NCBI GenBank assembly: GCA_030698625.1
Contig: JAUYMS010000047.1
Span: 76,210-119,864, forward strand
Reading direction: 5' to 3'
DNA length: 43,655 nucleotides
From: Candidatus Omnitrophota bacterium
GTDB taxonomy: Bacteria > Omnitrophota > Omnitrophia > Omnitrophales > Aquincolibacteriaceae
In this document: positions 10,081 to 36,963 of the stretch, in pieces
How the letters are laid out: the number at the start of each line of letters is the position of its first letter
Position numbering within the stretch: position 1 is the stretch's first letter
The notes under the pieces: model-generated
Databases searched by the model: none
The model's input: only the letters and a program-made list of their open reading frames with translations
What the model was told of the DNA's origin: nothing
Position numbers and translations under genes: made by a program

Positions 10081-11505
10081 TTATAGTCCTACGCGTACGC
10101 GGTATCGTACTTTGACTTCGCCATTCTGAGGCACGGATACCGGGAATTTGAGTGTGAAGGCGTCTGTCTTTTCATAAGGATGAGAGTTTGAAACAAGCGA
10201 CCAGTTGCCGCTCATGCGTTCCATCACGACGACATCAGCGCTTTCCTTCTTATGATTGTTGAGTGTGATTTCCCACTCGGATTCCGTCATTTTAGTCGTT
10301 AGTTTCTGAAAATCCGTCTGTCTCTTTTTAGCGATCACATCAAAAGACCGTCCCACTTGGAGTTTCACTTCTTCGTCTTTGGGGGTGGGCGCAATCTGCG
10401 ATTCGCCGATAAACTCTTGATTCCCTTGAGCATCACGGGCATAGACCCGCATGACACCGCCCGGCAGCGGAACACCGAGGCCGTTCTCTTTGCTGTTCCT
10501 AAATTTTAAGTGCACCTGCACCGGCTCTTTCTGTTCCTCATCGGCTGCGGCACCCTGGTAATAGCCCTGCGCCCCGACCACACGGCGTTCCTTTGTAACA
10601 CCGACCCCATCGCCTTCAAAGAGAAGCAGCTGCTTGCTCTCGTTGTTCTTAATGGAAGTCCGGCGATCGAGATTGTAGACGTGATACTCGAATAGATCCT
10701 CTTCCTCGAACTGTGACTCCATCGCGACCCCGGAGAAGGCCATGCCACGCGCCTGCATCGCAACTGCCTTGTGCGCCAAAGAAGTGCGCTGAACATCCCC
10801 GGCCACGAATTTGATGCGGGCATTCTCATAGGCTGTTCCGCTTTGATTATCCAGTGTCACCCACGCCGAAAGTTTGGCAGGTTGATTGTCCTCACCCAGC
10901 ACCAGGACATAATCGGTCTTCCAACTTATATTGGTCGTGAGGTAGGAAAGTTCGAGATCGCGGCGCTGACCGCTTTTGATCTCGTAATTCCAAATCAGGG
11001 TCGGCTCCGTGATGAGATCAACAGGAACTCCGGGCAGTACTTGCGTGCCGGGATGCCCGATAAATATTTCCTCCCCTATTTGATAAATGGGGCCGTTTGT
11101 CGAAAGCAGAATCGCCTCCACGGTTTCTTTGCGGTCCTGGAATTCGTTCCAATCGACAATCTTGATCTTCTTGCCCACATACTTCTCAAGCAGTACCCCC
11201 GGCCCTACTAGATCGTAGGCAAAGTTTTGTTCCAAGATACGGAAGTCTCCGCCCGATGAGGCAGCCCTCACGTTCACGCTTTCGGGAATAAGGCTCGCAG
11301 CCACACCGGCCCAATGCAGCTCTCCCCCATTCACATCCAACACAGGAGAGCGAGTCTCCTTGACGAATGCCAGATTGTTGTTGTACACGGTTACTTCGAC
11401 CGAAGTTTGGTCACCGAGAGGACTCTTGTTAACGGCCTCGGCCGTCCCGCTAAAAGCAACATTGAATAGCATGCCGAATAGAATAAGAATCATTGCCTTC
11501 TTCAT
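10081..11505 (-). CDS. Secreted DUF4139 domain protein
   Basis: 474 aa with a signal peptide (residues 1-24, ILILFGMLFNVAFSGTAEA). The family signature is visible: VTVYNNNLAFVKETR near the N-terminus, then LELSYLTTNISWKTDYVL and LSAWVTLDNQSGTAYENA, and a beta-rich C-terminus ending KVRYRVRVGL. DUF4139 (PF13598) proteins are predicted extracytoplasmic beta-sandwich proteins without an assigned activity. The ATG overlaps the stop of the DUF4126 gene (ATGA at 11502-11505). Confidence 0.88.
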   Translation of the reverse strand: MKKAMILILFGMLFNVAFSGTAEAVNKSPLGDQTSVEVTVYNNNLAFVKETRSPVLDVNGGELHWAGVAASLIPESVNVRAASSGGDFRILEQNFAYDLVGPGVLLEKYVGKKIKIVDWNEFQDRKETVEAILLSTNGPIYQIGEEIFIGHPGTQVLPGVPVDLITEPTLIWNYEIKSGQRRDLELSYLTTNISWKTDYVLVLGEDNQPAKLSAWVTLDNQSGTAYENARIKFVAGDVQRTSLAHKAVAMQARGMAFSGVAMESQFEEEDLFEYHVYNLDRRTSIKNNESKQLLLFEGDGVGVTKERRVVGAQGYYQGAAADEEQKEPVQVHLKFRNSKENGLGVPLPGGVMRVYARDAQGNQEFIGESQIAPTPKDEEVKLQVGRSFDVIAKKRQTDFQKLTTKMTESEWEITLNNHKKESADVVVMERMSGNWSLVSNSHPYEKTDAFTLKFPVSVPQNGEVKVRYRVRVGL

Positions 11506-19484: not shown

Positions 19485-20123
19485 ATGCGAACGCATACGT
19501 TAGCACTACTTATTATCCTCTTTGCGGCCGCGGCTCAGCCTGCGATGGCCGCCGACAGCTCCTGGGAGCTCGTCAAACGCGAAGGCGCCGTCTCACTCTA
19601 CTCAAGACCGGACCCTGACACCAAGTTCAACGCCTATAAGGGCGCAGCGCTCTTTGAGGCTCCCATTGAAACGGTTTACGCTGCATTCCTCGGGCCCGAA
19701 ATTGCCCAGCAGTGGATGTTTCAGCTTGAGACCATCCAGGCCTTGCCTGCCCCGAGCGACGTTGAGCGTTATTATATGCAATGGGACCTTCCGTGGCCCA
19801 TACCGGACGGGGATGTCGTCGCTGACATGAGCCGGGATTTCGACGAGGCAAACCGAACCTGGATACTCTGGTTTCTCAAACAGGACATTGAGTTTAAGGG
19901 AGGTTCGGGGTCGAAGCGCTTGGACGGCTTCAAGTGTGTCTGGCGTCTGAGTGCCATGGGAAATAATCAAACGCTTGTGGAATTCGGGTTAACGATAGTA
20001 CCCGGCGGGTCGTTCCCCCACTGGGCCGTCAACTACTGGAACCGTATCTTCACGATCAATAATGTCCAAGAATTGCTGAATTTTCTTTCCGAAGAAAAAG
20101 CGGTTACGCAGACACCTCAATAA
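19485..20123 (+). CDS. Secreted START/SRPBCC-type lipid-binding protein
   Basis: 212 aa from ATG 19485; ATG 19473 in the same frame lies inside the TATAAT box and is unlikely. Signal peptide (HTLALLIILFAAAAQPAMA). The mature protein starts WELVKREGAVSLYSRPD and has PIETVYAAFLGPEIAQQWM, YYMQWDLPWPIPDGDVV and a C-terminal helix, typical of StAR-related lipid-transfer (START) domains that hold a lipid in a helix-grip cavity. Its 3' end overlaps the convergent giant gene by 20 nt. Confidence 0.85.
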   Translation: MRTHTLALLIILFAAAAQPAMAADSSWELVKREGAVSLYSRPDPDTKFNAYKGAALFEAPIETVYAAFLGPEIAQQWMFQLETIQALPAPSDVERYYMQWDLPWPIPDGDVVADMSRDFDEANRTWILWFLKQDIEFKGGSGSKRLDGFKCVWRLSAMGNNQTLVEFGLTIVPGGSFPHWAVNYWNRIFTINNVQELLNFLSEEKAVTQTPQ

Positions 20124-23100
20124 GCCCCCGGTTCACCAACACCTCATCGATATAGCTCGCCAAAGCCACGGCAAAGCCCCCGGCGACCGCATGTGCACCC
20201 GGCACGATATTCTGGAGCGAGGATTCAAGCAGGCGGATGCGTTCAGCCCGATTCGGCACATTGCGAATCAGCGAGGCCGCCTTCAAGAGACCCGGAACCA
20301 AAAATCCGACAGCGGCCAAGTCTTCGTCACTGACCTCATCGGGGTTCAGGATAAACCGCACAGCGGCGGCGGGCAGTGAAGCGGTGTGAGCGGCCGAAGA
20401 AAGCGCAACCACACCGTAATGATGCCTTTCGATATGCCGCTCTAAGTCGCCGGGAGACACAACTTCGATGAGCTCAGCCAGTCTCGAAGCGCTCAGAAAG
20501 CGCTCGGCGTCAAACCGCTCCATCACACTCAAACCATTGTGTTTATTTCGCAGCGCATCAGCCGCCCTATCCAGCAGTTCCCGCGTTCCGGCAAAACCCA
20601 CTAGCGGTTGAGGTGCGAAACTTCCCGCCGACACATTATCCAGGCTCTTCAGCAGCACATAAAGCGCTCTCGGGTTACGGTCTATCAGAGGGTTGAGCCA
20701 AGCGGCGTCGAGAAGCACCTGTCCGGTATCCGCAGCGGCGGCCTCTTGCAAACGTGATTTCCATTTAGCCGTCGGACGAATCCGCCCCGTGCCGAAAGCC
20801 CTAACAAGCGCGCTCTCCGGACGCGTGCGCACAATACCGGCTTTTTCCGCATATGCGGCGCGCCCCAGTAACCCACTGAGCATCTTGACCAGAACCGCGG
20901 TTCCGAGTTCCTCGAAACGCAGCGGCAATGTCTGGGCCCGATACTTCTGAAAAACAGTAACCGTATCAACCCGGAGCTCTGAACGGTCGGCTCCCAGTCC
21001 GTCGAGGTGGTCTTTAAGTATACGTTCTGTCTTGCGGGTATAGCCGATTGTGTCGGGCGGCTGTATCAGGTTGGCCGGTCCGCGGATCGGTGCGCCGACA
21101 TTGACGACATCAAGCTCCGGGAGAACCAGCAGTTTATACCCCTGGCCTTCTGCTTCAAAGTTGTCTTCAAAAAAGACCATCTGACTAATTTCAAAGCCCT
21201 GTTTTATCAGATCATGCACACCATCAATCTTTCCCGGGTTCTCCTTCGCCAGAACAAGCACACGCCCGTCACCGATGTGAACCTGGAAGTCGTCAATACC
21301 GGCTTCGCGCAGACGTTCGCTGGCTTTGGCCTGCAGGATACGCAGCTTCCAGTTGTCGAGCTTATTGAGCTGATTGATCGAATAATCCAGATTCGGAGAG
21401 TAAAGGATGACGGCTTCTCGCCGACTGATCTTACGTGCATCAAACTCAGCCAATGACGCAAACGGCGCGTGAAAGCCAAGTCGGTCAGACTCTTCCGCAT
21501 CTAACTCCTGAAGGATCCGAATCGCAGCTTCAATATTGCGATTGTCCTTAAGACTAAGAATCCTGCCTTCCCTGTGTTCTTCGTAGTATGGCAAATCCTC
21601 ATCAGCCGTAATCTTGCCATCGGGCGATTGTGAAAACGCATACTTATGCGCGGAACCAAGTGAAAATAACTTTAAACGACTCAATGAGCGCGGATTAAAG
21701 CGCGGGTGCTCAAAAATATTTTCCAGAAAACCGAGCCCCATACCCTTCTCGAGCCCATCGAGACCCTCCGGGCCAAGGAACCGCAGTGTGTTGAGCTCCA
21801 CAATTTTGTCCGCATTCAACAAACCGACGATCAATCCCACCATTTCCTCAGAAATCGTGCCGTGCATCGGAATCAGCGTGTCATCAACATCAAAGATAAA
21901 GACGCGCTTATTTTTAAGCGCCTCTGCAATCTCAACCCAAGACTTAATGGCAGGCAGCGTGCTCGGTTCGATCCTTTTGGTGTCATGCACCACGAACTCA
22001 CTGCCGTGGATGCCTCGAATCACGCCGGCTTCAGCGTTAAGCTTGAGCGGCAACCTCGCAAGCAGTGATCTCGCTTCGAAAACAGCCGAGGTCCGGTGAC
22101 TGCTCCGTGCGAGCTTCGATGCCACGGCTAACGAGCCGCCAAACCCACTCAGCACCTCAGCCACCTCTTCCAAGCGGCCTCGCTCCAGGTCCGGAACAGA
22201 CCCCAAATATTCTCCTAAAAATCCCAGATCTTTACGGACCTGATCCATCGCGACGACATTGGAGCTATGAATCCCCTGTTCGATAAGAAAAGACTGGAGT
22301 TCTCTGCGGAGCGGGCTCGCGTCCAGATCCTCATAAAGCGGGGCGATCAAGCGCGCGAGCGAGCGCTTCATCACGGGCGGTATGCGAGGGCCAAAGTTTT
22401 GATCCCGTGTCGCCCAGAGGAGTTGCCGCGTCGTTCTTACGGCTTCGACCGCGCCTGATTGTGTCCAGCGCATCATCACCAGATGGAGGCCGAAGACACG
22501 CATCTGGTCGGCATTCATAAAGCCGGAGATTTCGCCGCTCGATAGAAGCCTAACAATCTCCTTAACAACCGCTTCGTAGAATATCTCGGGTCTCTTGCTC
22601 AAAAAATCAATCGCGCGCGCACGGCCGACCGGCCCTGTTCCCAACATGCGCTTCAATACAGAAAAATCGGTATCCGGTGATAGCTCCGAACCGAAGGCCG
22701 CGACTTCATCTTCAAGCCCCGGCACCGAGAGGAGGTTCCGCCAATAGCTTTCTGACATACCCGCCGAGCCTTCCCGCCAAACGGCCGAGATTTTGCCGTT
22801 GATAATATCTACCATTTTTTCGTCAACTAAACTCTTCAGAGCTGTCAGGAACGACTCCTTTTCTGATTCGTCTACGCGGATCATCGTTGCTGACTCACGA
22901 TGCACACGGTCAATTTCCCGAATCCACCGCAGGACTTCCGCTGAAAACCGCCGCTCGGCAAGCTCCGCAGAAAATATCTCCGCATCCGCGATACGCGACC
23001 GATTCTGCTGCGGTTGACCATTCAATAATGCCAACAGCTCCGTTAATTGCTCTGAATCGAGCTCATCCTCGGAAAGGAGCCATTTGATCCGCGCCACATG

Positions 23101-26100
23101 CTTCCTCAGCAGCAAATGTACCGGGTTCTCACCGGCAGCAACGATATCCGTGAAGGAGCGGAACGTTCTGTCCTTATAGATAGAGACATACGGCATACGG
23201 TCACGGCCTTCTTCTGCCCAGACAGTTCGCATATCTTCGCTTGAAATCAGACTCGGCGGCTTGACATTATACCCTTCAACTTTCATCTCCGACCCGGCCA
23301 GCCATGAATGGAGGTTCTCCTGCAGAGGCATCAACTGTTCCTGGGTGAGCCCATCCACCACGATAAAGTTCGAATCAAAGTCACTCTGCGCTAAGGTCAG
23401 TCCCATCGTCAGTGAATTGGGCATCGAGAGAATTTCGGTGACGGCCGCAGCCGGGTTAATCTTTTTAATCTCTTCATCCAAACGGATCGTCGCGTACTTA
23501 AGCGCGGCGAACGCGTTGTCGGTATGATTGATTTGTTTGATCGCCTCTTGTGCCGTGTACTTCTGCAATGAGAGAACCGGGATACCTAACTCGCGCTTGA
23601 GCCGGCTGCTGCCGACATATCTTGTGTTTTCAATCATACTGACGGAAGCGAGCACATGAATACCCTTCTCGTGCAATGAAGCGACCATTCTCCGCTGTTC
23701 TTCACCGTCGGTCAGCTCCCCCGTCACTAAAATAATACCGTCACCCGCAGTCAGCCCGTGAAAGGTCATGGCGTAGCCATTCGCCCCGATATAATCCACC
23801 GTTTGTGCATCGGACTCGATCGGTGCAGGCCGGTTGCTCGCGGTCATGAGCGGAAGATGGGTTGCATCCGCAATCGCCGCGGCTCCATACAGCCCTGAGG
23901 TTGTAGGCCCGGCAACATAGAGCGTCTTTCCCTGGGCATAATAGGATCGCCGCAAATTCGCAAGCTTTCCCAATTCGCTTTCTAATGCCGCCTGTGCATT
24001 TTTCCCCGCGCTTCGAAATTGTTCCGGCGTAAGAGGCACCGACATACCCCGAAAAGCGTGATCGGTCCACACGGTCTCTTTGGTATCAGCGACCGGATAA
24101 TGACGAATCGCCGCATCAAAAGGCACTACTGCACCATCTGCCGGCGCATTCCAAACCCGCACGGCTTCGCCGAAGGGCGCGTGACCTGGCTCCGTTGCAT
24201 TCACCGCCTCCAGGAACACATACGGAAAGGTTTCTGAGGCGAGACGCTCAAGGGCTTCCGGCGAGGTCCGAAGAACAATTCCGGCCGAGGCAAGTTCTGC
24301 GCGGCCGGTTTCCAACATTTGGCGAATATTCTGCATGACGCGTCCCGTCGTCGCTTCATCGTCGACATACAGGATGCGGCTGCCGGGCGGAACAACGGCG
24401 CGCGATTCAAATTCAGGGCTGCTTTGCAGCATATGCGGCTCCGCCATCGTAAGGCGGTTCGCACCGCCGGCCAGCGCAGAATCAAAGGCCCCAAACTTCA
24501 ACTTTGTCAGTGTCAATAACGGAAGTTCCAGTTCGCGTGCGGTCAGCAGACCGGGAAGAAGCCCTGCATTATATTTGCCCATGACATAGTCAAGCGCCTC
24601 GGTTCCACCCTCAGCACGTAAGGCTTCGATGACTGCATGCATCACGCTTGCCGCCGCGGCGACTGAGATCGGGTGATCGCTTCCGGTCACCGGAACCGCT
24701 TTCTTCAGTCCGTTGGAGTGAGGAATCTCAGCCGGCCTAAATTGAGGGTAAAAAAAGCGGTTCATGGGAAGGATCTTTCCTTCGCTGAGAAAGAGCCGTT
24801 TCTCTTCACCCGTAATCACCTCGCCGCTGGCCTTTCCCAAGATGGAGCGAAGAACCCAATCGGGATTTAAACTGTGGACCGCATTTGCTTCACGCCTGTA
24901 CGCCTCCGCGGCGTTGTCGTCAACGGTGAATTCGGGCAGCGCACGACGCACATCATCAATCGTGTAACTTCCGGGAGTAGTCGTCCTTAGTTCCGATCGG
25001 TCGCCTTCTTTTCTGGGCGCTTCGATGTGGGTAAGTGCCCTGTGCGCCGCCCGGACAATCTTTTCGGGTGAGATGCGCAGGTCCAGCTCCCTGCCGATCG
25101 TCACCGTCCGCATCGTGGCGGGATCGTCAAAACGCACGTCTAAAACCTTCACCTCCGCGCCCGGCATTTGCCACACGCCTGCCTCTCCGGTCGGCACAAG
25201 CGATGCAAGGACCGGTACGAGGATATTCCTTTCGGCATAGGCCTCCCGGATGACATCCGCGATGACCAACTCGAAATCGTGCCGGGCATCAGGGTCCTCT
25301 TTAAGGTAATTGTGATAGACCACGTTGTAGTAAATGAGGCCCGTGAGATTCGGCAACCCCTCTGCCAGGCCGGCATAGTCGGCGGTATCGGATTCCAACA
25401 CAGCACCTTCCAGCAGCTTAACGGCGGTAAAGGTATGAAACCTCTCCACGACGAAACGCTTAAACTGCTGCGGGTCAAAACCGCGGATGCGCTTTCCTAG
25501 TGCCAATGCCAGTGCGTTGAAATCAGGACGGAATAACTCGGGATTAAACCTTGTTCGTTGTTCGGGGTCAACTTCATAGACGACACTATAATAATTCGCC
25601 TGATTCAGAACGGCTTCCTGCCGGAGCTCTTCTGAGTCGGAGTCGTTTTGGTAAAGCATGACGTAATTTTTATAAATCTCGAAAAAGACCTGGTTGAGAA
25701 AGGGCATGACCTCACGGGCCTTTGTGTATTTATTCCAAAATTCATCAAACCGCTCGAGCGAAGCCTCCGTATCGGAATCGACCGCCTTCGCGAGAAAGCC
25801 GTAGGCATCGCGGTACTGGCGCACGACTTCGGACCGCACACCGGCTTCTCCCTGCGCCGCCCAGTCGAGACGAGCCCCCGCACGATCGACCGCCTCGAGG
25901 TACGCGCGCCCGAATCCCAAATAATCCATCCAATTCGAGGTGCGGTTCACAGCACCTGTGGTGTACGGAGCTTTGAAGACAAGATAGTAATCCTCAGGTG
26001 CGGCGTCCGCGGGAACATTACGGCGCATTTGCAGATTTTTCCAATGCTCATGCACGAGGCTGCTCACGCGCCCGCCTACAACCGGCGTGGTGTAGACAGC

Positions 26101-29100: not shown

Positions 29101-32100
29101 TTTCCTGACCTCGTCCTCCAGCCGCATGACCGCATACTTTAGGGAATCGTGGATACTCTTCGTTGCGTTCCACCGCCGCATGTCGGGCGAAATAAAGTTA
29201 CCCTTCCGCAGAGAGCGGGCCGGCACTCCGGTCTCAGCTTCGATTCTTTCGCGGCCCCCATAGAGCGCGCTTTCGATCACGCTGATAGAACCGAGCACTT
29301 CCACCCCTTTGTCGCGCAAGGCGTGAATGATGCGCACCTGTTCTTCGCCGTCAAAAAGCTCACCGGAGACAAGCACGACTGCGTCACCTGCCGTGAGCCC
29401 GAAGAGCGAATAGGCGTAACCGTCGAGAGAGATGTAATTGACGACATCCGAGATATCCATCTCGGCGTACCCCTTTGGCTCGGGGCGATTCATGGCGCCG
29501 ATGAGCGGTAAGCGCGTCTGGCGTGCGGCCGGGACTGCGGCCAATATGCCGCTCGGCGTTGTCCCCGCTAAAAAGAGCGTCCTGCCCTTCCCGTAATAAG
29601 CCCTGCGCCTCTCTCCGATATCACCGATCAGATTTCTGATCTCGCGCCGGATGGCGGCACCGGCCTGACGCGCAAGCTCCGGTGAGAGCGGCATCGTCAA
29701 GCCGCGGAACGGATGGTCCGTAAAAAGGCGCCCGTCCTCGGCGGGATACTCGTTGATCGGCATCCCGGAAAGATCCGCATCAGCGTCGCTTACAGTCATT
29801 GCGACCGCCGGAATCGCCTGCTCAAACGGCACAACCGTCGGTACATCGCGATCGGCCCCAGCGATAATTTCCGGTTTCAATGAATCTATGTGCACATACG
29901 GCAGTCCCGATTCGAGGAAGCGCTCCTCGGCTTCAGGCGATGATTGCACCACAACTCCCACACCGATTGTTTGAATCGCAAAATCTGCCAACTTTTCGGC
30001 CAGATTCTGCCCGACTCTTCCGGTGGTGCTCTCATCATCGAGAAACAGGATCCGCGTTCTTGGCTGCACATAAGCATTGGAGTAATACTCCGGATTGTCG
30101 ATCGGCATATGCGGTTCCTCGATACGAAGCAGTCGGCTATGATCCGGCACAAGGAACGGGTAGGGCATTTTTGTGAGCGTAAGCATCGGGACGTCGAGTT
30201 GACCGGATGCGATGGCTGCCAGCACCAGGCCGCCGGTGTATTTCCCCATCACGCTAAGGTCGGTGGTGTCGTCAAGATTCACTCCGCGTTCGCGAAGTTT
30301 TTCAATAAGGGCTTGAGCTATCGATTCTGAAATGACCGTCGACACGGGATGATTGCTTGAGGTAATGCGCACGGCTTTCTTCATGCGGTTCGAATGCGGG
30401 ATATCGGCCGGCCGCATATGAGGCCGATAAAGGATGGTCTCCGGCCGCAGCTTCCCTTCGTATAAGAAAAGGTCGGCCTCCAAATCGCTCACCTGCTCCC
30501 TCGATGTTTTTCCCAACACGCCGCGTAAAATCCAGTCTAAGTTATCCGAGCCCAGAGCGGCGGCCTCGCGGCTGACTATCTCGCGACTCACAGGATTAAG
30601 CCGACTCTCATCGATACTGCGAAGCTCCGAGCGTGTGTCGCGGGCACGGAGTATCCTCAAAAACCGCTCAGGTCCGGTCTCAGGTACGGGCGACGCCTCC
30701 AGTTGAAGAATGTCCGGTGTGCCTTGCGTGGGAGGCGAGATCGAGACCACGCTCAACCCCGGGATTTCGCCGAGCGTGCGGTTAATGCTGTTTCCTCCAA
30801 ATTTACCCCCGATAAAAACAATATCGCCTATGGCAAAACCCTTTTCCTGCAGATCAAATATCGCGTCATCGTGCTGGTTATTCTCCTTTGAAAGGAAAAC
30901 ACCCCGCTCCCGATGGAGGCGGGGAATCAACGGCACAGTTCCGGTGCCGGCGGGATCACGCGCGTACTCATCCAGAATCAGCCGGCCGAGAATCCGGATC
31001 TTCCAGTTTGCGACGGCCGCAAAGCCGCCCTTGATGCGGTTCGGAAAATATTGAATTCCAAAATCATCGCGCTCCACTTGCTCACGCATGAAGTCCTGCA
31101 CCGTAAAGTCGCCGTGCGCAAGATCAAAGCGCTCATAGTTCTCGCGATGGATTTTGAGCAGTACGCGGTCTACGCGTGCCAGAGACAATTGTTCTGCCGG
31201 AGTGAAGACCTTATGTCTGCCGCGGCCTTGCGTGTAAGCGTGATCTTCAACCGGAATGTATGTTCCTCTCGAGTCCGCTGATTCCGAAAAAACGATCTTA
31301 CTGGAAGAGGCGCTCGCATAAACGATCACTTGCGGCAGCATGTCCTTGGTAAACTCCGCATGGGCAAACAGATCCTTGACGATTCCCAGGTTTTGGCCGG
31401 GCTCCAGAGTCGCGAAATCCTCGACACGAAGGTGACGCAGGGTAATAAAGGCCAGGGTCTTCCCTTCTTTCAGAAGTTCCATAAGGGCATCAATCATCTC
31501 AGGCATGACCGCATCTTGACCCGTGACCGCGTCATCGAGCGCCAATGCAAAGACGTTCTTATCTTTCAGATGGAGGGTGATTTCTTCGGCTGTGCGGGTC
31601 TTGACGGGAACATTTGCCCTAAATTTTCCGTCGGGCCCCTTGGCAAAACGAATGCCTGCGAGCCCCGGATGCCGGAGGCTGATTTCGCTTGTTTTATCGT
31701 CGATTTCAACTGAAGAATCCATAAGCATGCCGTGCGCTGCTGTGCGCAGCTCTAAGTCGGCCAAGTCATTGCTTGCGATGTTAATGAGTTTTTCGATGGA
31801 CTGCCCGTACAGATCGTCGAGTACCCCGCTGATCTCGTCGATATAATCCGCCGCATTTTCCGGCAGCGACTCGATATACTCCTCGAGAAATTCCAGCTCT
31901 TTCGGCTCGTCACCGATTTCCGTGAACTCCTTAGTGTCCTGCTGGGTCTTCAAAAAGCGCAATGCATCTTCCAGTTCATCAGGTCTTAGCGAATCGATAA
32001 AAGCAGTCCGCCCGATTGCTATCGGGACGACCATCATGAGCCGTCCGCCCTTGTGACCGATCGATTCTTTGATGCCCTGCCATGCCTCAACCGGGTCCAG

Positions 32101-35100
32101 GGCCGGGTGGTAGAAAGGCTGCCCGAGCTTGTGATGGAGATTTAGAATGCGCGTAAAATCTTCCACCGAGAGCATTCCCCGCTCACGGGCAATATAGGCC
32201 GACATCAGGACATCTATGGCTACGGCCTCACCATGCCGTAATTCAAACCCCGTCATGGCCTCAAATTTATGCGCGAGAACATGGCCGAAATCGACATGCC
32301 TCATAAGATTGTTCTCAAAAAAGTCGAGCCGCAGATGCCAGAGCAGTTCCATCGCCGCATCACGCACGAACTTCGTACGCTCGGTCTTTGACATGCGTTT
32401 GATAAAATCAGTGCCGTATTCTTCGAGCGTTTCGAAGAGACCGGGGTTCGAGACCATCGCAATCTTGATCACCTCTGCCGTCCCTCCCCGAACCTCGCGC
32501 AGCGGCAAAGACTCGAGAAAGCGCGCGTCGGTGATCGAAGCAAAGGGCGGATAGAAAGCCCCGACGAAGTTCTTGGCGCCGCGATAGTCAATGCCTACCT
32601 TCACGCCGACAGCGGCGTCCACCTGTCCAAGAAAGGTGGTGGGAATACGAATGTATTTCACTTTGCGCCGGTATTGGGCCGCCACCATGCCGACCATATC
32701 CATGACTGCCCCGCCTCCGATCACGACAAATATTCCGTTTCGGTCAAAACCGCGATCCTGCGCATAGTCGGTCAGCTCGCGCACGGCATCCGGATTCTTA
32801 ATATTCTCGCCCCCTTCATAAACCTGGATTTCACCCTTCATGTGAATGCCGTGGGCCTCGACATATTTTTCAATTTCGGCGCGCACACCTAGATTTTCCG
32901 CCACGAACTTTTCGGTAACGAATATGACATTGTTGCTACTGAGGAGATCCGCCAATATGGGATTCTGCGGGTCGAAGGCATTCTCGGTAAAATAGTCGCG
33001 GTACTGAATGTCGTTGGGCGCACGGGCTTCAACCGCCTCAACCCCTCTTTCATCGGTCCTCACCTCGACGTACCCGCCATCATAGGGTCGCTCAGGCTCG
33101 GTCTGGTTTGGGTTGAATCCGAGCAGACCCGCTCCGCGAAGACCGTTTTCGCCGTCAAGCTCGCCGAGCACGAACATATCCTGAAGCTCCTCACGCGTAT
33201 AACCGTAGACACCCCGCTCTGAAAGCTTATCAATGACGGCGTCGAGATAGGTTTGACCTAGGCTCTCGGCAACGCCTCCCATGAAAATAATTTTGTCCGG
33301 CGCGTTTGCCAAGATATAGGGATTGAGGACGCGGACAAAATAGCGGATCGATTCACGCAGAACGGCCCAGGCGAATTCATCGCCTGCCTGCACTCCTGCC
33401 GCGATATATTCCGTTAAATCGTCCCCCTTTATCCCTTGTATGTCTGTCTTAAGGCCGTCAATCGCAGCTTTAACTGATGATTTGTTATATAGGGCCTTTG
33501 TCCTCTTTCTCCTTGCCATACGCCGCGCCAGATTGGCGATACCGCGACCGGAGCCGTAGGCATTCAGCTCACCCTTGACGCCTTCTTCCTGAATCGCATC
33601 GCGACTGTCGTCGACGACGGTGTGCCCGATTTCTCCGGCACGACCGGCCTTATCGATGATGACTTCGCCCTTGCCGATATCGAATAGCTTTGTACCAATG
33701 CCGCTGCTGACCGTAATGAGGCCCAAGGTTTGCAAACCCGCAAAGCGCGGATCTCGGCCATAGCGATAGACCGCCGCCGTCAAGTCGTTGACCGCCCGCA
33801 CCGGCAATCCGAAATAATCTTCAAGGTCACGGTTCTTAATGAGATTTTTTTCAGGCCCCCAAATCACTGCCGATTCCGCAAAGTTGCCTTCCTCATCCGT
33901 GGGCCCGGCGAAGCCTATGGAGATCTGCTTCACATCGGGATGGAGCGCCATTAGGCGATCCACCTCTTGTTTCAATCGCTCAAGCCATATCCGCTGCATC
34001 TCGGCAATGGGTTTGCCCGCGACGGTCGCAATTTTATAACTTGGGGTATCGTACGTCACCCTATCGGTGATCTTCTCGCCATCCCAAAGCCCCACACGCG
34101 TATGAGTTCCGCCGGCGTCGACTACAATGACCGGTCCGCCTTCAGCCTTAGGACGCAAATTCCGTTCATATCGCATATCATCGATTTGATTGCGCACGCC
34201 CGTCTCGGGATGCGTAAAGCTCCGCTCGCCCAACATGCGCCTGGACCATGACGGGTCCTGTTTGTTGGCAGGCTGCATTTCACCTTTAAAAGTCACCGTT
34301 CCCGTACCTTCCGGGGCATGCTTTTTAATCAATCCCCAGATCTCATCGGTGTCCGTCACCGTACCACTGGCGAGGTCGACGATTTTTTCGGGGCCGGGTT
34401 CGAGCGTAGAACCGGCGGCAAATAAAATCTCTGCGACGTCCTGGACATAGACATAATCACGCTCTTCAGCCTTCTCGGTGACATGCTTACCATCGAGGCG
34501 AGCCGCGATCATTCGCTGCACCTTGCGGCCTGACTGATGACCCGGGCCGTACACATTTGAAATACGCACGGCGAGAGGGTTTTTCAACCGGCTCCGTTCG
34601 AGGTACATCTCCGCCAGCCTCTTGCCCAATTCATAGGGATACGCATTCTTCGGCATCGGAAAACGTTTTAGGATGTCGGCGTTCAGTTCTTCGAGCGCCT
34701 CGTTGTAGTCGGCCGAATCAAGGAAAACTTCCTGCTTCCTCGTTTCGATGTGCGCAAGCACCTTTTCCAGCCAAGCCGTCACGTCAGCATCCTCCAAGAT
34801 TTCGTAGACACGCTGTGTCGACGCAAAGATAAATCGCGGCTCCGTCGCTGCTTCCTCCGCCCAGACCATCAGGCCGAGAGCCGCCAAGCCATTCACTTTG
34901 AAATTTTCGGGGTAACTCTCCTCACCCTTTCCAAGCCCCACAATTCCGGCCAAGTGATAAAACGTATTCGCATTCTCCAAGAGTTGCTTCATGCGATCGC
35001 GATCCATAAAATCCGCCTCCACGTAAGAGTCCGCCGAGAATGACCGGCCCGCGCGCTTTTCCAGTTCAGCCCGCGACTCCGGCGAACGAATGACCGCGCG

Positions 35101-36963
35101 ACTGAGGTCATATTGCGAATTAAGGTATCGAAACAGCGTCGCTCCGACATCACCGCTCGCACCCGTCACCGCGGGGCCCGCGCTTTGGCTTGTAATCCTC
35201 AGTTCGGACCGCACGGCGGCATAGCGTTTTCCGAGTGCGCTCTGTCTGAATGCTGCCCGCAGTGCCGGACTTGAACCGACACGGTTAACGGCCCGCATAA
35301 CCTCTTTTGTCACAGCCTGCTCATCGATCCCGAGGCCGCGCAGTTCAGAACGATCCGCCGAGATGAAGAAAGGACTTTCGTAGGTCTCGCGGCTTAGATC
35401 CCCGGACCGATACTTAAGGAGCGACTCTTGATAAACAGCCTGGCCGTTGAATTCTGTGATATGCGGCGCAATCAGGGCGTAGTTAAAACCCGCGGCCGTA
35501 AAATGATCTGCCAGAGGCCCGGCGTGGAAACCGCCAGAAATGACGACGGCCTGTTTCGCCCCCGTTTTTTGCAGGCGTGTCTTGATGTTCGCGATCATCC
35601 AATGGTCACGCTCTTTGGTACCGCGATAAAATGCGAGCGCCCTTTCGTAAATCTCATTGATCTCGTCAAGATGCTCAAAGCGCATATCGCGCACCCGGCC
35701 TTCGCGGTTGAGCTCAAGAAAGCGGCCGGCCAGCGTACGCGGTTGCAGATGTTCCTCTGCCCCTATAATGCGATCGTAATCGCTGGGCGTGAGTTCTAAG
35801 GCAAAGAGCTTTCGCACCAACCCGTAGTCGCGAAGCAGGGCCAAAAGGGCACGTTCCTGATCCGTCTCTGCCAGGGCATCACCGAGTCGTCCGGCCAGTT
35901 CATCAATTTCTTTAAAAAGGCGGCCGGCTTTAAGTTCACTGCGCAGGATCACATGGCCGATGAAACGATTAAGATTCGGGAAATCATCATAAGAAAATTC
36001 AGGGCCGAGCTCGGCGGCCATCGCTTCGATGAGAAGGCCCGTTTCCGGGTCGGGCAGGTCATCACGGACAACGGCCTGATCGAGAAGGACGGCAATTTCA
36101 TCATAGAGCGCGGGCAACAGCTTCCCTCTCACTTTACTCAGAAAACGGTCGCGCTCTGCACGGAAAGCGGAATAATCGACTTCATCCTGTAAGTGAACCA
36201 GGCGGTAGAACCGGAACAGCATCGGCCAATCGATCTGCCAGACGGCATCGCCCAAATCCAGGCCGAGGACATCTTTGGCTTCTTCGCGGAGATGTTTGAG
36301 ATAATCTTCCAGAGGAATTGTCCCCCGCGCATACCCGGTTTCAGTCTCAAGAAAGCGCCGCAACAGCACCGGCAGCAGGGTCGTTTCAAGGCGCTTGATT
36401 TGAGTTTGCATCTCGGCCAGAAAGGACTCATGCTTTTGCTCCGCTAACAATACATCGCGAAAGGCTTCGCCGCTCGCGCGATAGGCCGGTGCATTTTCAA
36501 TACCATAAGCCGCGGCGTCGGGCTCTTCAGAAAGAAATAATTCAACACCTTTTACGAGCGCCTTCTGTGTCAGTAATTCGAGGGCCGTCATTGTCGGCTT
36601 GGCGTGACCGGGGAAAAGCCGCAGCAATTCGGAATCGAGTTTCACGGCACTCCCCTCGACCAAAACCGTACTGACACCGCGGACATCGTGAAGGTGATGC
36701 AGAATCGCCTGAATATGCTTTTGGGCCTGGAAATTTCCGTGCGCGGTTTGGATGTGATAAATAACCGGATCGGACTTCGTTGACGAAATGATTTTTTCGA
36801 TGCGCCCGAGACCGGCCGGGAGCGCTAAAAGGAACGCATCAGGCGCCCTAAGAGGTGTGGGCTTCGAGACAAACGTGTACGCGGCTTGCGCAGGAATGAC
36901 CTGCTGAAAGATGAAAAGAAATGCCGTAAATAGCGCAATAATTCGGTGCTTTTGTGTGCCCAT
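20104..36963 (-). CDS. Giant 5,619-aa secreted-type multienzyme protein with RSELR linkers
   Basis: One uninterrupted frame from ATG 36963 (GAGGGG two to three bases upstream, rather close) to TGA... at 20104; roughly 0.6 MDa. Order: signal peptide 1-27 (IIALFTAFLFIFQQVIPAQA); ChaN/TraB-like head about 50-520; RSELR 538 and 585; extended SDR about 595-930; ROK kinase about 943-1275; sugar-phosphate cyclase about 1317-1665; degenerate HAD about 1780-2095; RSELR 2111; PRTase-like pair about 2130-2620; helical region; HAD (DWDGT) about 3110-3390; RSELR 3424; unrecognised block; RSELR 3989; second PRTase pair about 4010-4490; helical region; HAD (DVDDT) about 4995-5315; RSELR 5327; C-terminal helical domain. 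It carries cytosolic-type kinase and NAD enzymes behind a signal peptide, which is odd. Domain calls vary in strength; each is listed separately. No clear promoter was found in 36964-37148. Confidence 0.95.
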   Translation of the reverse strand: MGTQKHRIIALFTAFLFIFQQVIPAQAAYTFVSKPTPLRAPDAFLLALPAGLGRIEKIISSTKSDPVIYHIQTAHGNFQAQKHIQAILHHLHDVRGVSTVLVEGSAVKLDSELLRLFPGHAKPTMTALELLTQKALVKGVELFLSEEPDAAAYGIENAPAYRASGEAFRDVLLAEQKHESFLAEMQTQIKRLETTLLPVLLRRFLETETGYARGTIPLEDYLKHLREEAKDVLGLDLGDAVWQIDWPMLFRFYRLVHLQDEVDYSAFRAERDRFLSKVRGKLLPALYDEIAVLLDQAVVRDDLPDPETGLLIEAMAAELGPEFSYDDFPNLNRFIGHVILRSELKAGRLFKEIDELAGRLGDALAETDQERALLALLRDYGLVRKLFALELTPSDYDRIIGAEEHLQPRTLAGRFLELNREGRVRDMRFEHLDEINEIYERALAFYRGTKERDHWMIANIKTRLQKTGAKQAVVISGGFHAGPLADHFTAAGFNYALIAPHITEFNGQAVYQESLLKYRSGDLSRETYESPFFISADRSELRGLGIDEQAVTKEVMRAVNRVGSSPALRAAFRQSALGKRYAAVRSELRITSQSAGPAVTGASGDVGATLFRYLNSQYDLSRAVIRSPESRAELEKRAGRSFSADSYVEADFMDRDRMKQLLENANTFYHLAGIVGLGKGEESYPENFKVNGLAALGLMVWAEEAATEPRFIFASTQRVYEILEDADVTAWLEKVLAHIETRKQEVFLDSADYNEALEELNADILKRFPMPKNAYPYELGKRLAEMYLERSRLKNPLAVRISNVYGPGHQSGRKVQRMIAARLDGKHVTEKAEERDYVYVQDVAEILFAAGSTLEPGPEKIVDLASGTVTDTDEIWGLIKKHAPEGTGTVTFKGEMQPANKQDPSWSRRMLGERSFTHPETGVRNQIDDMRYERNLRPKAEGGPVIVVDAGGTHTRVGLWDGEKITDRVTYDTPSYKIATVAGKPIAEMQRIWLERLKQEVDRLMALHPDVKQISIGFAGPTDEEGNFAESAVIWGPEKNLIKNRDLEDYFGLPVRAVNDLTAAVYRYGRDPRFAGLQTLGLITVSSGIGTKLFDIGKGEVIIDKAGRAGEIGHTVVDDSRDAIQEEGVKGELNAYGSGRGIANLARRMARRKRTKALYNKSSVKAAIDGLKTDIQGIKGDDLTEYIAAGVQAGDEFAWAVLRESIRYFVRVLNPYILANAPDKIIFMGGVAESLGQTYLDAVIDKLSERGVYGYTREELQDMFVLGELDGENGLRGAGLLGFNPNQTEPERPYDGGYVEVRTDERGVEAVEARAPNDIQYRDYFTENAFDPQNPILADLLSSNNVIFVTEKFVAENLGVRAEIEKYVEAHGIHMKGEIQVYEGGENIKNPDAVRELTDYAQDRGFDRNGIFVVIGGGAVMDMVGMVAAQYRRKVKYIRIPTTFLGQVDAAVGVKVGIDYRGAKNFVGAFYPPFASITDARFLESLPLREVRGGTAEVIKIAMVSNPGLFETLEEYGTDFIKRMSKTERTKFVRDAAMELLWHLRLDFFENNLMRHVDFGHVLAHKFEAMTGFELRHGEAVAIDVLMSAYIARERGMLSVEDFTRILNLHHKLGQPFYHPALDPVEAWQGIKESIGHKGGRLMMVVPIAIGRTAFIDSLRPDELEDALRFLKTQQDTKEFTEIGDEPKELEFLEEYIESLPENAADYIDEISGVLDDLYGQSIEKLINIASNDLADLELRTAAHGMLMDSSVEIDDKTSEISLRHPGLAGIRFAKGPDGKFRANVPVKTRTAEEITLHLKDKNVFALALDDAVTGQDAVMPEMIDALMELLKEGKTLAFITLRHLRVEDFATLEPGQNLGIVKDLFAHAEFTKDMLPQVIVYASASSSKIVFSESADSRGTYIPVEDHAYTQGRGRHKVFTPAEQLSLARVDRVLLKIHRENYERFDLAHGDFTVQDFMREQVERDDFGIQYFPNRIKGGFAAVANWKIRILGRLILDEYARDPAGTGTVPLIPRLHRERGVFLSKENNQHDDAIFDLQEKGFAIGDIVFIGGKFGGNSINRTLGEIPGLSVVSISPPTQGTPDILQLEASPVPETGPERFLRILRARDTRSELRSIDESRLNPVSREIVSREAAALGSDNLDWILRGVLGKTSREQVSDLEADLFLYEGKLRPETILYRPHMRPADIPHSNRMKKAVRITSSNHPVSTVISESIAQALIEKLRERGVNLDDTTDLSVMGKYTGGLVLAAIASGQLDVPMLTLTKMPYPFLVPDHSRLLRIEEPHMPIDNPEYYSNAYVQPRTRILFLDDESTTGRVGQNLAEKLADFAIQTIGVGVVVQSSPEAEERFLESGLPYVHIDSLKPEIIAGADRDVPTVVPFEQAIPAVAMTVSDADADLSGMPINEYPAEDGRLFTDHPFRGLTMPLSPELARQAGAAIRREIRNLIGDIGERRRAYYGKGRTLFLAGTTPSGILAAVPAARQTRLPLIGAMNRPEPKGYAEMDISDVVNYISLDGYAYSLFGLTAGDAVVLVSGELFDGEEQVRIIHALRDKGVEVLGSISVIESALYGGRERIEAETGVPARSLRKGNFISPDMRRWNATKSIHDSLKYAVMRLEDEVRKLNPDAHVREIRMLPSSFTTHTMIQGSDFDEAYVFVEGVSEHELAQFQEPFGRWISVGAAALDGLNEKAPRLISTWHEDAAVKSYELESLPLVRVYENGRFLSQEELIRNKIKVVRGVSRKQIARIRWFLTEGEMRREDVETLLASRGRDVRSSPRLQALKRLLDEPRETAYLSDAALNWVRRFEAEYTAGKRSFEFGEENKAEMVPVLRELLAKAMIRVWNGKLIPVWRHHSTRFSDRFWTEQAEIVGYEQELNDLDREWLANLPESAVLSGRLASNKPRTFELKKWDWRFSPYLMEIILRSWQGNETLNRAQQNRLIDAFGDGDAFSVAAALELAETREQELAPRIRGKILKLLDVDGEAAEALEAFFGREQTRVDMMIKLLFRWMRFSDASPDAALTWVLENLLEHDREARIPPMVMQNITTHLGKVFAQISDDRIRERVTAHLVGQSRDFRKRSAERGAKVVSDLGLVRKGSVEPGVVPSEAAAATRDRKLLFDGLEAARQQGRSVDALATDWDGTMNDASSSRSHVVNPEHAFWLNWLMEQGKKIVVTTGASYDRFHDQALDTAVNPVPIRAGPNFAVFNDTVAYLNDRPHDYPKFPQSFLDLLHDIMTRRGWHELDIGRPPHSVYYKKGITGAEALSEAEAVRAELPNDVFHYSFVSNGGAKGQFFKIAPVTKAAVFDVPLFDGEKLDPDRTMVAGDYVLPSGIDGPLLEAGRSLRVYVGPGEIDGALNLENKNEAGTLLMLEAFAASTLLEIRSESGADPDEMLEALRKRLADTPAIGEPRAESMIGHVRALVETDRSELRAQSQEEAVRVLLGLFSADDAPENGVAAASYPSVHARLARAVVGTVSPEVSEPTLISGAFGNVDVLLMPEQTGENARVAAQDIRYLTGSVRLAAAAVLEITKHMDMGQALNLHTLPYLLDYSWNDQSPDVYERELAFMKRDSAEAAMGSLLTDGRLFETDEAGNLHLIHMTLGKNDMLASAEKEVYTSVRAVGPAVYTTPVVGGRVSSLVHEHWKNLQMRRNVPADAAPEDYYLVFKAPYTTGAVNRTSNWMDYLGFGRAYLEAVDRAGARLDWAAQGEAGVRSEVVRQYRDAYGFLAKAVDSDTEASLERFDEFWNKYTKAREVMPFLNQVFFEIYKNYVMLYQNDSDSEELRQEAVLNQANYYSVVYEVDPEQRTRFNPELFRPDFNALALALGKRIRGFDPQQFKRFVVERFHTFTAVKLLEGAVLESDTADYAGLAEGLPNLTGLIYYNVVYHNYLKEDPDARHDFELVIADVIREAYAERNILVPVLASLVPTGEAGVWQMPGAEVKVLDVRFDDPATMRTVTIGRELDLRISPEKIVRAAHRALTHIEAPRKEGDRSELRTTTPGSYTIDDVRRALPEFTVDDNAAEAYRREANAVHSLNPDWVLRSILGKASGEVITGEEKRLFLSEGKILPMNRFFYPQFRPAEIPHSNGLKKAVPVTGSDHPISVAAAASVMHAVIEALRAEGGTEALDYVMGKYNAGLLPGLLTARELELPLLTLTKLKFGAFDSALAGGANRLTMAEPHMLQSSPEFESRAVVPPGSRILYVDDEATTGRVMQNIRQMLETGRAELASAGIVLRTSPEALERLASETFPYVFLEAVNATEPGHAPFGEAVRVWNAPADGAVVPFDAAIRHYPVADTKETVWTDHAFRGMSVPLTPEQFRSAGKNAQAALESELGKLANLRRSYYAQGKTLYVAGPTTSGLYGAAAIADATHLPLMTASNRPAPIESDAQTVDYIGANGYAMTFHGLTAGDGIILVTGELTDGEEQRRMVASLHEKGIHVLASVSMIENTRYVGSSRLKRELGIPVLSLQKYTAQEAIKQINHTDNAFAALKYATIRLDEEIKKINPAAAVTEILSMPNSLTMGLTLAQSDFDSNFIVVDGLTQEQLMPLQENLHSWLAGSEMKVEGYNVKPPSLISSEDMRTVWAEEGRDRMPYVSIYKDRTFRSFTDIVAAGENPVHLLLRKHVARIKWLLSEDELDSEQLTELLALLNGQPQQNRSRIADAEIFSAELAERRFSAEVLRWIREIDRVHRESATMIRVDESEKESFLTALKSLVDEKMVDIINGKISAVWREGSAGMSESYWRNLLSVPGLEDEVAAFGSELSPDTDFSVLKRMLGTGPVGRARAIDFLSKRPEIFYEAVVKEIVRLLSSGEISGFMNADQMRVFGLHLVMMRWTQSGAVEAVRTTRQLLWATRDQNFGPRIPPVMKRSLARLIAPLYEDLDASPLRRELQSFLIEQGIHSSNVVAMDQVRKDLGFLGEYLGSVPDLERGRLEEVAEVLSGFGGSLAVASKLARSSHRTSAVFEARSLLARLPLKLNAEAGVIRGIHGSEFVVHDTKRIEPSTLPAIKSWVEIAEALKNKRVFIFDVDDTLIPMHGTISEEMVGLIVGLLNADKIVELNTLRFLGPEGLDGLEKGMGLGFLENIFEHPRFNPRSLSRLKLFSLGSAHKYAFSQSPDGKITADEDLPYYEEHREGRILSLKDNRNIEAAIRILQELDAEESDRLGFHAPFASLAEFDARKISRREAVILYSPNLDYSINQLNKLDNWKLRILQAKASERLREAGIDDFQVHIGDGRVLVLAKENPGKIDGVHDLIKQGFEISQMVFFEDNFEAEGQGYKLLVLPELDVVNVGAPIRGPANLIQPPDTIGYTRKTERILKDHLDGLGADRSELRVDTVTVFQKYRAQTLPLRFEELGTAVLVKMLSGLLGRAAYAEKAGIVRTRPESALVRAFGTGRIRPTAKWKSRLQEAAAADTGQVLLDAAWLNPLIDRNPRALYVLLKSLDNVSAGSFAPQPLVGFAGTRELLDRAADALRNKHNGLSVMERFDAERFLSASRLAELIEVVSPGDLERHIERHHYGVVALSSAAHTASLPAAAVRFILNPDEVSDEDLAAVGFLVPGLLKAASLIRNVPNRAERIRLLESSLQNIVPGAHAVAGGFAVALASYIDEVLVNRGLIEVSA
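20107..20970 (-). other. Domain: C-terminal helical domain of the giant protein
   Basis: Residues about 5332-5619, directly after the last RSELR. Helical, Ala/Leu-rich (AVLVKMLSGLLGRAAYAEK, VVALSSAAHTASLPAAAVRF). No family recognised. Confidence 0.4.
20971..20985 (-). repeat. RSELR motif 6 (residues 5327-5331)
   Basis: CGT TCA GAG CTC CGG, preceded by Ala-Asp. Separates the last HAD domain from the C-terminal domain. Confidence 0.85.
21019..21981 (-). other. Domain: HAD-fold domain with intact DVDDT
   Basis: Residues about 4995-5315. VFIFDVDDTLIPMHG gives the nucleophile at Asp5025 and the acid/base at Asp5027; QMVFFEDNFEAEG is the likely late acidic motif. Paralogous to the dead copy at 1780-2095. 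It closes the second PRTase module. Confidence 0.65.
23494..24936 (-). other. Domain: phosphoribosyltransferase-like pair, copy 2
   Basis: Residues about 4010-4490. Paralogue of copy 1: NPDWVLRSILGK, RPAEIPHSN, MAEPHML, ILYVDDEATTGR (Asp4201, Asp4202), LYVAGPTTSGLYGAA and TGELTDGEEQ (4414-4423). The spacing between the two loops (about 213 residues) is close to copy 1 (about 224). Confidence 0.5.
24985..24999 (-). repeat. RSELR motif 5 (residues 3989-3993)
   Basis: CGA TCG GAA CTA AGG, preceded by Gly-Asp. Separates the unrecognised block from PRTase module 2. Confidence 0.85.
25009..26676 (-). other. Region: unrecognised block between RSELR 3424 and 3989
   Basis: Residues about 3430-3985. 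Contains FGNVDVLLMPEQ, LHLIHMTLGKND, APYTTGAVNRTSNWMDYLGFG and a long helical, aromatic-rich part (FDEFWNKYTKAREVM, QVFFEIYKNYVMLYQ). Bounded exactly by two RSELR motifs. I recognise no family. Confidence 0.4.
26680..26694 (-). repeat. RSELR motif 4 (residues 3424-3428)
   Basis: CGC TCC GAA CTG AGG, preceded by Thr-Asp. Separates the DWDGT HAD domain from the unrecognised block. Confidence 0.85.
26794..27636 (-). other. Domain: HAD phosphatase with intact DxDGT
   Basis: Residues about 3110-3390. DALATDWDGTMND places the nucleophile at Asp3136 and the second Asp at 3138; KKIVVTTGASYDRF is motif II; TMVAGDYVLPSGIDGPLL is the late acidic/GD motif. Resembles Cof/sucrose-phosphatase-type HAD-IIB enzymes, which dephosphorylate sugar phosphates. 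Confidence 0.75.
27679..29046 (-). other. Region: helical segment of module 1
   Basis: Residues about 2640-3095. Predicted mostly helical by composition; GVSRKQIARIRWFL and RIPPMVMQNI have clear counterparts in the second module (RKHVARIKWLL, RIPPVMKRSL). No catalytic motif seen; HEAT-like scaffold possible. Confidence 0.4.
29104..30576 (-). other. Domain: phosphoribosyltransferase-like pair, copy 1
   Basis: Residues about 2130-2620. LDWILRGVLGK, RPADIPHSN, RIEEPHMP and a PRPP-loop-like LFLDDESTTGR (Asp2309, Asp2310) resemble PRTase_2 (PF15609) proteins of Ter operons. A second Rossmann-like part follows (LFLAGTTPSGILAA, SGELFDGEEQ at 2533-2542) that may equal the TRSP domain. GSDFDEAYVFVEG downstream recalls a nucleotidyltransferase motif, weakly. 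Confidence 0.5.
30619..30633 (-). repeat. RSELR motif 3 (residues 2111-2115)
   Basis: CGC TCG GAG CTT CGC, preceded by Asp-Thr. Separates the dead HAD domain from PRTase module 1. Confidence 0.85.
30679..31626 (-). other. Domain: degenerate HAD-fold domain
   Basis: Residues about 1780-2095. Paralogue of the HAD domain at 4995-5315: KDKNVFALALDDAVTG corresponds to KNKRVFIFDVDDTLIP, so Ala1808 stands where the nucleophile Asp should be. NWKIRILGR versus NWKLRILQA and GDIVFIGGKFGGN versus SQMVFFEDNFEAEG align, and the late acidic motif is also lost here. Probably not a phosphatase; a scaffold or regulatory role is possible. Confidence 0.6.
31969..33015 (-). other. Domain: sugar-phosphate cyclase (EEVS/dehydroquinate synthase superfamily)
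   Basis: Residues about 1317-1665. NAD motifs GGENIKN (1384-1390) and VIGGGAVMDM (Gly1416-1418); IPTTFLGQVDAAVGVKVG and KNFVGAFYPP; metal ligands in GGTAEVIKIAM (Glu), DFGHVLAHKFE (His) and LRHGEAVAID (His). The VGVKxG and GAFYPP wording is closer to what I know of 2-epi-5-epi-valiolone synthases than to AroB (VGGKTG, GAFYQP). Substrate call is inference. Confidence 0.75.
33139..34137 (-). other. Domain: ROK-family sugar kinase
   Basis: Residues about 943-1275. ATP phosphate motif VDAGGTHTRVG (Asp949), sugar-binding IGFAGPTDEEG, AVNDLTAAVY with the catalytic Asp, SSGIGTK, and the EIGH motif (Glu1111-His1114). The usual CxCGxxGCxE zinc loop that follows is replaced by a Cys-free EEGVKGELNAYGSG. 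ROK members include glucokinases and the C7-cyclitol kinases of the acarbose and validamycin pathways. Confidence 0.85.
34174..35181 (-). other. Domain: extended SDR (NAD-dependent epimerase/dehydratase)
   Basis: Residues about 595-930. NAD(P)-binding VTGASGDVGATL (Gly601-Gly607), NTFYHLAG, FIFASTQRVYE and the catalytic YELGK (Tyr777, Lys781), then RISNVYGPG. All hallmarks of the extended SDR family acting on nucleotide sugars or related polyols are intact. It lies directly in front of the ROK kinase with no RSELR between them. Confidence 0.88.
35197..35211 (-). repeat. RSELR motif 2 (residues 585-589)
   Basis: CGG TCC GAA CTG AGG, preceded by Ala-Val. Ten residues before the SDR glycine motif. 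Confidence 0.85.
35338..35352 (-). repeat. RSELR motif 1 (residues 538-542)
   Basis: CGT TCT GAA CTG CGC, preceded by Ala-Asp. Ends the ChaN-like head. Confidence 0.85.
35404..36882 (-). other. Domain: ChaN/TraB-like head of the giant protein
   Basis: Residues about 28-520. Begins IEKIISSTKSDPVIYHIQTAHGNFQAQ in pieces (AH...AQ motif), then STVLVEGS and AAYGIENAPAY, and ends AVVISGGFHAG (His480), ALIAPHITEF. The left giant protein has the same order of motifs (GGFH at 494). The pattern resembles the ChaN/TraB(TIKI)-like superfamily of putative metal- or heme-binding or protease-like domains. No function can be assigned. Confidence 0.5.

Follow-up and report, generated by a model that had tools for sequence, protein, structure and literature searches.

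The pentapeptide RSELR, together with the variant words that stand in its place in related lineages, marks the boundaries between modules of giant proteins throughout the genome of a Candidatus Omnitrophota bacterium and throughout its order. An earlier note, made from the DNA letters alone, had counted seven copies in two giant proteins and had suggested a protease or docking site that cuts or organizes a polyprotein. The observation is far larger than first noted: it is genome-wide and recurs with variants across the order, and the notion of a motif confined to the source genome was rejected in favor of a family- and order-level feature.

RSELR in the giants of the window

The window, i.e., the whole stretch of 43,655 nucleotides that was analyzed, corresponds to C35:76210-119864 of the source genome (G000; 3.52 Mb, 50 contigs). 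It harbors a giant of 5,619 aa (ORF at 20104-36963, minus strand) and, to its left, a giant ORF of 1,946 aa which is open at the window edge. The features of the two proteins, all on the minus strand, are as follows.

36883..36963, minus: predicted signal peptide of the larger giant, with basic n-region, hydrophobic core and AQA (sequence)
35413..36882, minus: N-terminal domain of the 5,619-aa giant, divergent Tiki/ChaN/EreA-like, with invariant H, E, R and GGxH (alignment, AF2, profile/fold search)
35338..35352, minus: RSELR at residue 538, directly after the N-terminal domain (sequence; AF2 N-domain model)
35197..35211, minus: RSELR at residue 585, the epimerase domain following 10 residues further on (sequence, Pfam)
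34393..35169, minus: NAD-dependent epimerase-like cargo module (sequence search)
33121..34128, minus: ROK sugar-kinase-like cargo module (sequence search)
31927..33033, minus: 3-dehydroquinate-synthase-like cargo module (sequence search)
30619..30633, minus: RSELR at residue 2111, preceding phosphoribosyltransferase-like module copy 1 (sequence)
28924..30618, minus: phosphoribosyltransferase-like cargo module, copy 1 (sequence search)
27328..27567, minus: HAD-IIB-like cargo segment, weak match (sequence search)
26680..26694, minus: RSELR at residue 3424 (sequence)
24985..24999, minus: RSELR at residue 3989, preceding phosphoribosyltransferase-like module copy 2 (sequence)
23284..24984, minus: second copy of the phosphoribosyltransferase-like cargo module, sharing 42% identity with the first (sequence search)
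20971..20985, minus: RSELR at residue 5327, followed by the final 288 residues (sequence)
20107..20970, minus: C-terminal segment past the last RSELR, ending ...LIEVSA-COOH (conserved tail; sequence)
4161..5711, minus: N-terminal domain of the left giant, same family (sequence homology)
3996..4010, minus: RSELR at residue 611 of the left giant (sequence)

The six positions in the larger protein, as well as the codon diversity of the seven copies, agree with those reported earlier; the copy in the left giant lies at residue 611 if counted from the TTG start (5840), which equals the previously given 603 from an ATG eight codons downstream. Composition predicts 0.023 copies for both giants taken together, and the only other pentamer present more than twice is DRSEL (4 copies), overlapping RSELR itself. 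The preceding Asp seen in four of the seven window copies turned out to be merely a mild bias genome-wide (26 of 170). The placement at domain junctions stood insofar as none of the six copies in the 5,619-aa protein falls in a Pfam domain; at the same time, RSELR is not found at every junction, since the epimerase, ROK, DHQ-synthase-like and later modules (585-2111) are joined without it. The AF2 confidence of the N-terminal domain (N-domain) falls from residue ~520, the copies at 538 and 585 follow, and the epimerase starts at 599; both copies of the phosphoribosyltransferase-like module likewise start shortly after an RSELR. An AF2 model of the latter module, built from two sequences, reached a pLDDT of 37.5 and was discarded. 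Elsewhere in the window, a Peptidase_M48 gene adjoins a DUF4139 gene (9229-10077 and 10081-11505) ~8.6 kb from the giant.

Strictness, placement and lineage forms of the word

Searched over the whole source genome, the DNA pattern coding for RSELR, CGNTCNGARCTNCG, gave 147 matches versus 8 for the reversed control. Giants were collected by translating stretches of the source genome and of its relatives; the source-genome set (116,416 aa) holds 164 copies versus 0.34 expected. The bearers are nearly all huge ORFs predicted to be exported, with up to 18 internal copies in one giant. The word is strict: its one-letter neighbors occur at about chance level in the same giants, position 2 of R.ELR is Ser in 164 of 164 cases, and the near-cognate R-x-E-L-R, which was among five patterns examined, has 0 copies outside the motif versus 7.4 expected (P 0.003, the lowest among 36 permuted patterns).

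As proposed earlier, RSELR is a protein-level motif and not a DNA repeat: the 152 copies compared are encoded by 118 different 15-mers, and their flanking DNA is unrelated (29-31% identity). A DNA repeat or palindromic element inserted in frame is ruled out by this codon and flank diversity, and the word is under extreme purifying selection as a protein. The codons of Glu3, Leu4 and Arg5 are near the usage of the same genes. Those of the first two positions depart from it, AGY making up 3% of Ser2 codons versus 40% expected and AGR 5% of Arg1 codons versus 20%. In all RSExR lineages, Ser2 is almost solely TCN (AGY 0-14% versus 33-46% in other Arg-Ser pairs); the AxSLG separator displays a similar bias (Ser3 AGY 84% versus 34%). 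Since no single change leads from TCN to AGY serines without a non-serine step, we infer that the RSELR copies descended by duplication from a TCN ancestor, never through non-serine states, and the bias of Ser2 would be a fossil of this spread by copying.

The placement between modules was assessed on 91 giants with 773 separators from all lineages, using 1,000 simulations. Only 13 of the 773 lie within BLAST-homologous blocks versus 129 +/- 10 by chance (simulation minimum 102); beyond residue 800, the count is 5 of 641 versus 67 by chance. Among five giants with Pfam matches, none of 60 separators falls in a domain (4.7 expected). The shared N-domain contains 2 separators in 28,777 residues, and in 40 of the 55 giants having both features the first separator comes 40-220 residues past the GGFH motif. 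The separators lie in disorder-prone linkers, with the peak of disorder propensity no more than 10 residues away. Spacing varies from 5 to >3,000 residues without regularity and includes double separators 5-18 residues apart (e.g., RSELREAGTAMRSELR, and RAELRRAELR in G041), separators 5 residues from the C-terminus (RSELRNAKSA, RSELRIAYAA) and, in family f6, separators 25-80 residues after the signal peptide, followed directly in two proteins by a lipoprotein-signal-like segment. In giants of G011, G041, G006 and G037, the linkers between close separators harbor peptides encoded by repeats (e.g., RSEQRQVARxFAVxxQ, LTLTLSPEGRGMGEG), which would suggest that such linkers tolerate repeats.

Blind k-mer discovery in the giants of relatives showed that sister lineages and families place other words at the same joints. 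RSELR itself is used in the source genome, G015, G031, G035 and mostly in G011; RSE[V/M/L/A/T/I]R in other genomes of the source genome's family; R[A/S]E[V/A]R in G028 and G033; AxSLG in G039 (69 versus 1.4 expected) and G038; GxSLG in G030 (42 versus 0.5 expected); and LSDxR in G042. No word was detected by this approach in giants of G048, G053 and G029. The words of different families are mutually exclusive. Searched in the 47 genomes of the order, the DNA pattern coding for RSE[LVMIF]R shows strong enrichment through most of f1, f6 and f8 as well as in f3 (e.g., 232 versus 22 in the control for G000, 265 versus 18 for G004). It stays close to the control in the families f4, f5 and f7; where a word could be identified in their giants, it is xSLG. 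Giants with [A/G]xSLG and LSDxR words bear the same N-domain (G039, G038, G032, G030, G042; loci L123, L124, L129, L132, L143-L155).

Common architecture of the giants

Signal-peptide-like N-termini are a general trait of the separator giants. Cysteine beyond residue 60 amounts to 0.02% in the source-genome giants versus 0.9% in its other proteins. The 5,619-aa giant has 0 Cys, giants nearly free of cysteine also occur in G011, G031 and G035, and those of G030 and G048 have normal cysteine. Ala is the last residue in 52 of 59 complete giants, which share a pattern of ~22 residues ending in (I/L/F)Ax(A/S/M)A-COOH. This tail is present in the window (20107-20200) and recurs in giants from numerous genomes of the order; no common domain was found ahead of it, the similarity being limited to the last ~22 residues. 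Among three stand-alone N-domain proteins without a separator, a number too small for a conclusion, two lack the tail and one ends in LRGA.

The N-domain is homologous among 15 five-prime-complete giants of G000 and G011. Of 58 relatives, 54 carry it, among them every one of the 47 genomes of the order, and at least 20 copies per genome are common. It occurs in G048 and G053, where the separator search gave none, and also in Elusimicrobia and Auribacterota (GTDB contigs, four query sequences); no separators were seen in the Elusimicrobia N-domain proteins, whose flanks were too short to judge. Its invariant positions (A47 H48, Q54, E76, G127, E325, R425, G450 G451 and H453) suggest an enzyme or a metal site. 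The N-domain may be related to the Tiki/ChaN/EreA superfamily: PF04187 (Haem-binding/Tiki/ChaN family) matches 10 of 38 members, with E 2e-4 at best, though not the window protein, and the AF2 model of the domain (pLDDT 88.8) has weak EreC and ChaN matches among solved folds (EreC: prob 0.69, TM 0.22, E 0.19). It differs from this superfamily by large helical insertions and a TM-score of ~0.2, and none of its fold matches is significant (E > 0.05). PMC6254334 deals with a Tiki/EreA-like effector.

The description of the cargo as metabolic enzymes proved too narrow. Other giants carry metallophosphatase, ELFV dehydrogenase, permuted enolase, 2-hydroxyacid dehydrogenase, histidine phosphatase, NUDIX, AAA helicase-like, methyltransferase, HATPase and kinase-like ATPase modules along with many membrane segments or modules and lipoprotein-like modules. 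In a 10,303-aa giant (L042, G000:C13), the C-terminal domain of enolase stands ahead of its N-terminal domain at residues 4496-4999, an apparent circular permutation within one inter-separator piece. Internal lipoprotein-signal-like segments with a lipobox Cys were noticed at L062:8426-12970 and L267:5840-9379 (G031), in G011 (L051) and in G039 (L147), twice shortly after RSELR; their host proteins are otherwise nearly cysteine-free. Some membrane modules in giants of G000:C25, G000:C13 and G025 (L046, L042, L136) carry HExxH-like motifs and resemble M50 site-2 proteases. Delivery of the cargo into a host or prey cell would be speculative.

Processing, docking and other readings

We give about an even chance to the reading that an exported polyprotein is processed at RSELR by a cut behind the second Arg, and that the site is specific to the lineage. 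The giants, exported and modular, would then carry a short separator read by a dedicated factor, and RSELR would be the form which this separator takes in the source lineage. The giant would leave the cell via its predicted signal peptide, fold module by module and be cut between RSELR and a following [A/S/T][D/E], yielding pieces of roughly 100-1,500 residues. More tentatively, the candidate for the enzyme would be the Tiki/ChaN-like domain that the giants share at their N-termini, and their conserved C-terminal AA tail could serve this system as a recognition tag.

Cleavage after Arg5 is favored by the downstream preference RSELR-[A/S/T]-[D/E]: in the source genome, A/S/T make up 60% of the residues at +1 versus 21% (p 6e-29) and D/E 39% of those at +2 versus 15% (p 4e-14). 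The bias at +1 recurs, in a weaker form, in G011, f6 and other f1 genomes. This preference fits a cut after Arg5, and the bias could partly reflect linker or helix-start composition. Cleavage is also favored by the close pairs, by the sites 5 residues from C-termini, by the f6 sites soon after the signal peptide and by the lack of RxELR near-cognates elsewhere; the switching of the word by lineage, its strictness and its placement between modules favor a processing site as well. The numerous junctions that have no separator, such as those of 585-2111 in the window protein, speak against it.

The properties of the motif are consistent with the protease half of the earlier protease-or-docking suggestion; a dedicated protease with a matching distribution was not found, and docking is the other half. 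None of the families C11, C14, S1, S8 and S41 tracks the motif. As universal processors, C11 (0 of 58 genomes), C14 (3 of 58) and S8 (14 of 58) were rejected, as was S1, absent from the motif-rich G011, G013 and G037. S41, considered also as a tail-specific reader of the AA tail, is lacking in G000, G005, G006, G011, G012, G013, G025 and G033, and was rejected in both roles. The sole candidate present in every genome of the order is the N-domain, with a wider spread than the motif. We consider rather unlikely, as a whole, a bacterial polyprotein economy with tens of exported giants per genome, in which a five-letter word would be cut by the N-domain in cis or trans, word and specificity would have co-switched several times within the order (RSExR, RAEVR, [A/G]xSLG, LSDxR), and the C-terminal AA tag would mark the substrates.

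The main rival of cleavage is docking or anchoring, a possible explanation, if one on the less probable side: a surface or periplasmic protein would bind the separators in the linkers and hold or order the intact giant, the partner co-evolving by lineage. A strict short motif in exposed linkers, its many copies per protein, the lineage-specific versions of the word, the membrane modules of some giants and the failure to find a co-distributed protease all suit such a role. It is harder to reconcile with sites 5-11 residues apart, which separate domains are unlikely to bind simultaneously, with a flank preference that is mostly downstream, and with sites that tether nothing, whether 5 residues short of a C-terminus or behind a brief stretch following the signal peptide. 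A signal for secretion, folding or chaperones, pausing or ratcheting export or recruiting a chaperone at the joints without any cut, seems improbable. The exported, cysteine-free, modular nature of the giants, the location of the motif at joints and the conserved C-terminal tail would agree with it, but the irregular spacing and the separators at the extreme C-terminus speak against it.

It is very improbable that the word is a non-functional trace of recombination or of an insertion sequence left at the joints by module shuffling at the DNA level. The codon classes of Ser2 and Arg1 do show descent by copying, and repeat-like insertions are present between close separators in some relatives; however, a DNA site would not preserve a protein word while its bases drift, as they have in the diverse 15-mers, the ordinary codons at positions 3-5 and the unrelated flanks. 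The motif does sit in linkers, as an inert linker preference or chance would have it, but both chance and linker composition are rejected by the count of 164 versus 0.34; given also that variants are scarce and that sister families have words of their own, this last explanation is of negligible probability.

The largest bacterial genes known include the giant ORFs of Omnitrophota, and the separator code shows at which points their products are meant to be split or held. It unites the giants into one system of signal peptide, N-domain, separator, C-terminal tail and absence of cysteine, and offers a direct test by terminal proteomics. Cleaved or not, the giants are divided by the separators into pieces fit for annotation, modeling and expression. 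If cleavage is true, this would be a large-scale bacterial polyprotein strategy, undescribed in the literature searched, whose specificity has switched repeatedly.

The separators have the look of punctuation marks at which an exported polyprotein would be cut, and no described bacterial counterpart of such a code was found. A search on the motif and on bacterial and Omnitrophota polyproteins, largely confined to open-access papers, returned nothing relevant, the letters RSELR occurring only in three unrelated alginate-lyase papers. The giant Omnitrophota ORFs of PMC10066038, from the same phylum, are very large and poorly annotated, with membrane helices, and one codes for 39,678 aa; a term search of that paper gave no mention of polyproteins, signal peptides or the cysteine content of the giants, and no sign of a separator motif. 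LPXTG/sortase and PEP-CTERM/exosortase systems likewise rely on a short, exact word shared by many otherwise unrelated exported proteins within a genome; theirs, however, is a single C-terminal motif with a membrane helix, whereas RSELR is internal, repeated and without a helix, and a C-terminal sorting signal of this type is ruled out by its up to 18 internal copies per protein. Autoprocessing multi-effector MARTX proteins are also giant exported multi-module proteins with release at inter-module sites; the cargo here, by contrast, resembles ordinary enzymes and membrane proteins, and no homology is claimed. With viral polyproteins and eukaryotic prohormones, the giants share a strict short inter-module site, a small residue after the putative cut and a specificity that changes with lineage; unlike them, they are encoded by bacterial chromosomal genes of ~2,000-16,000 codons, are exported and number tens per genome.
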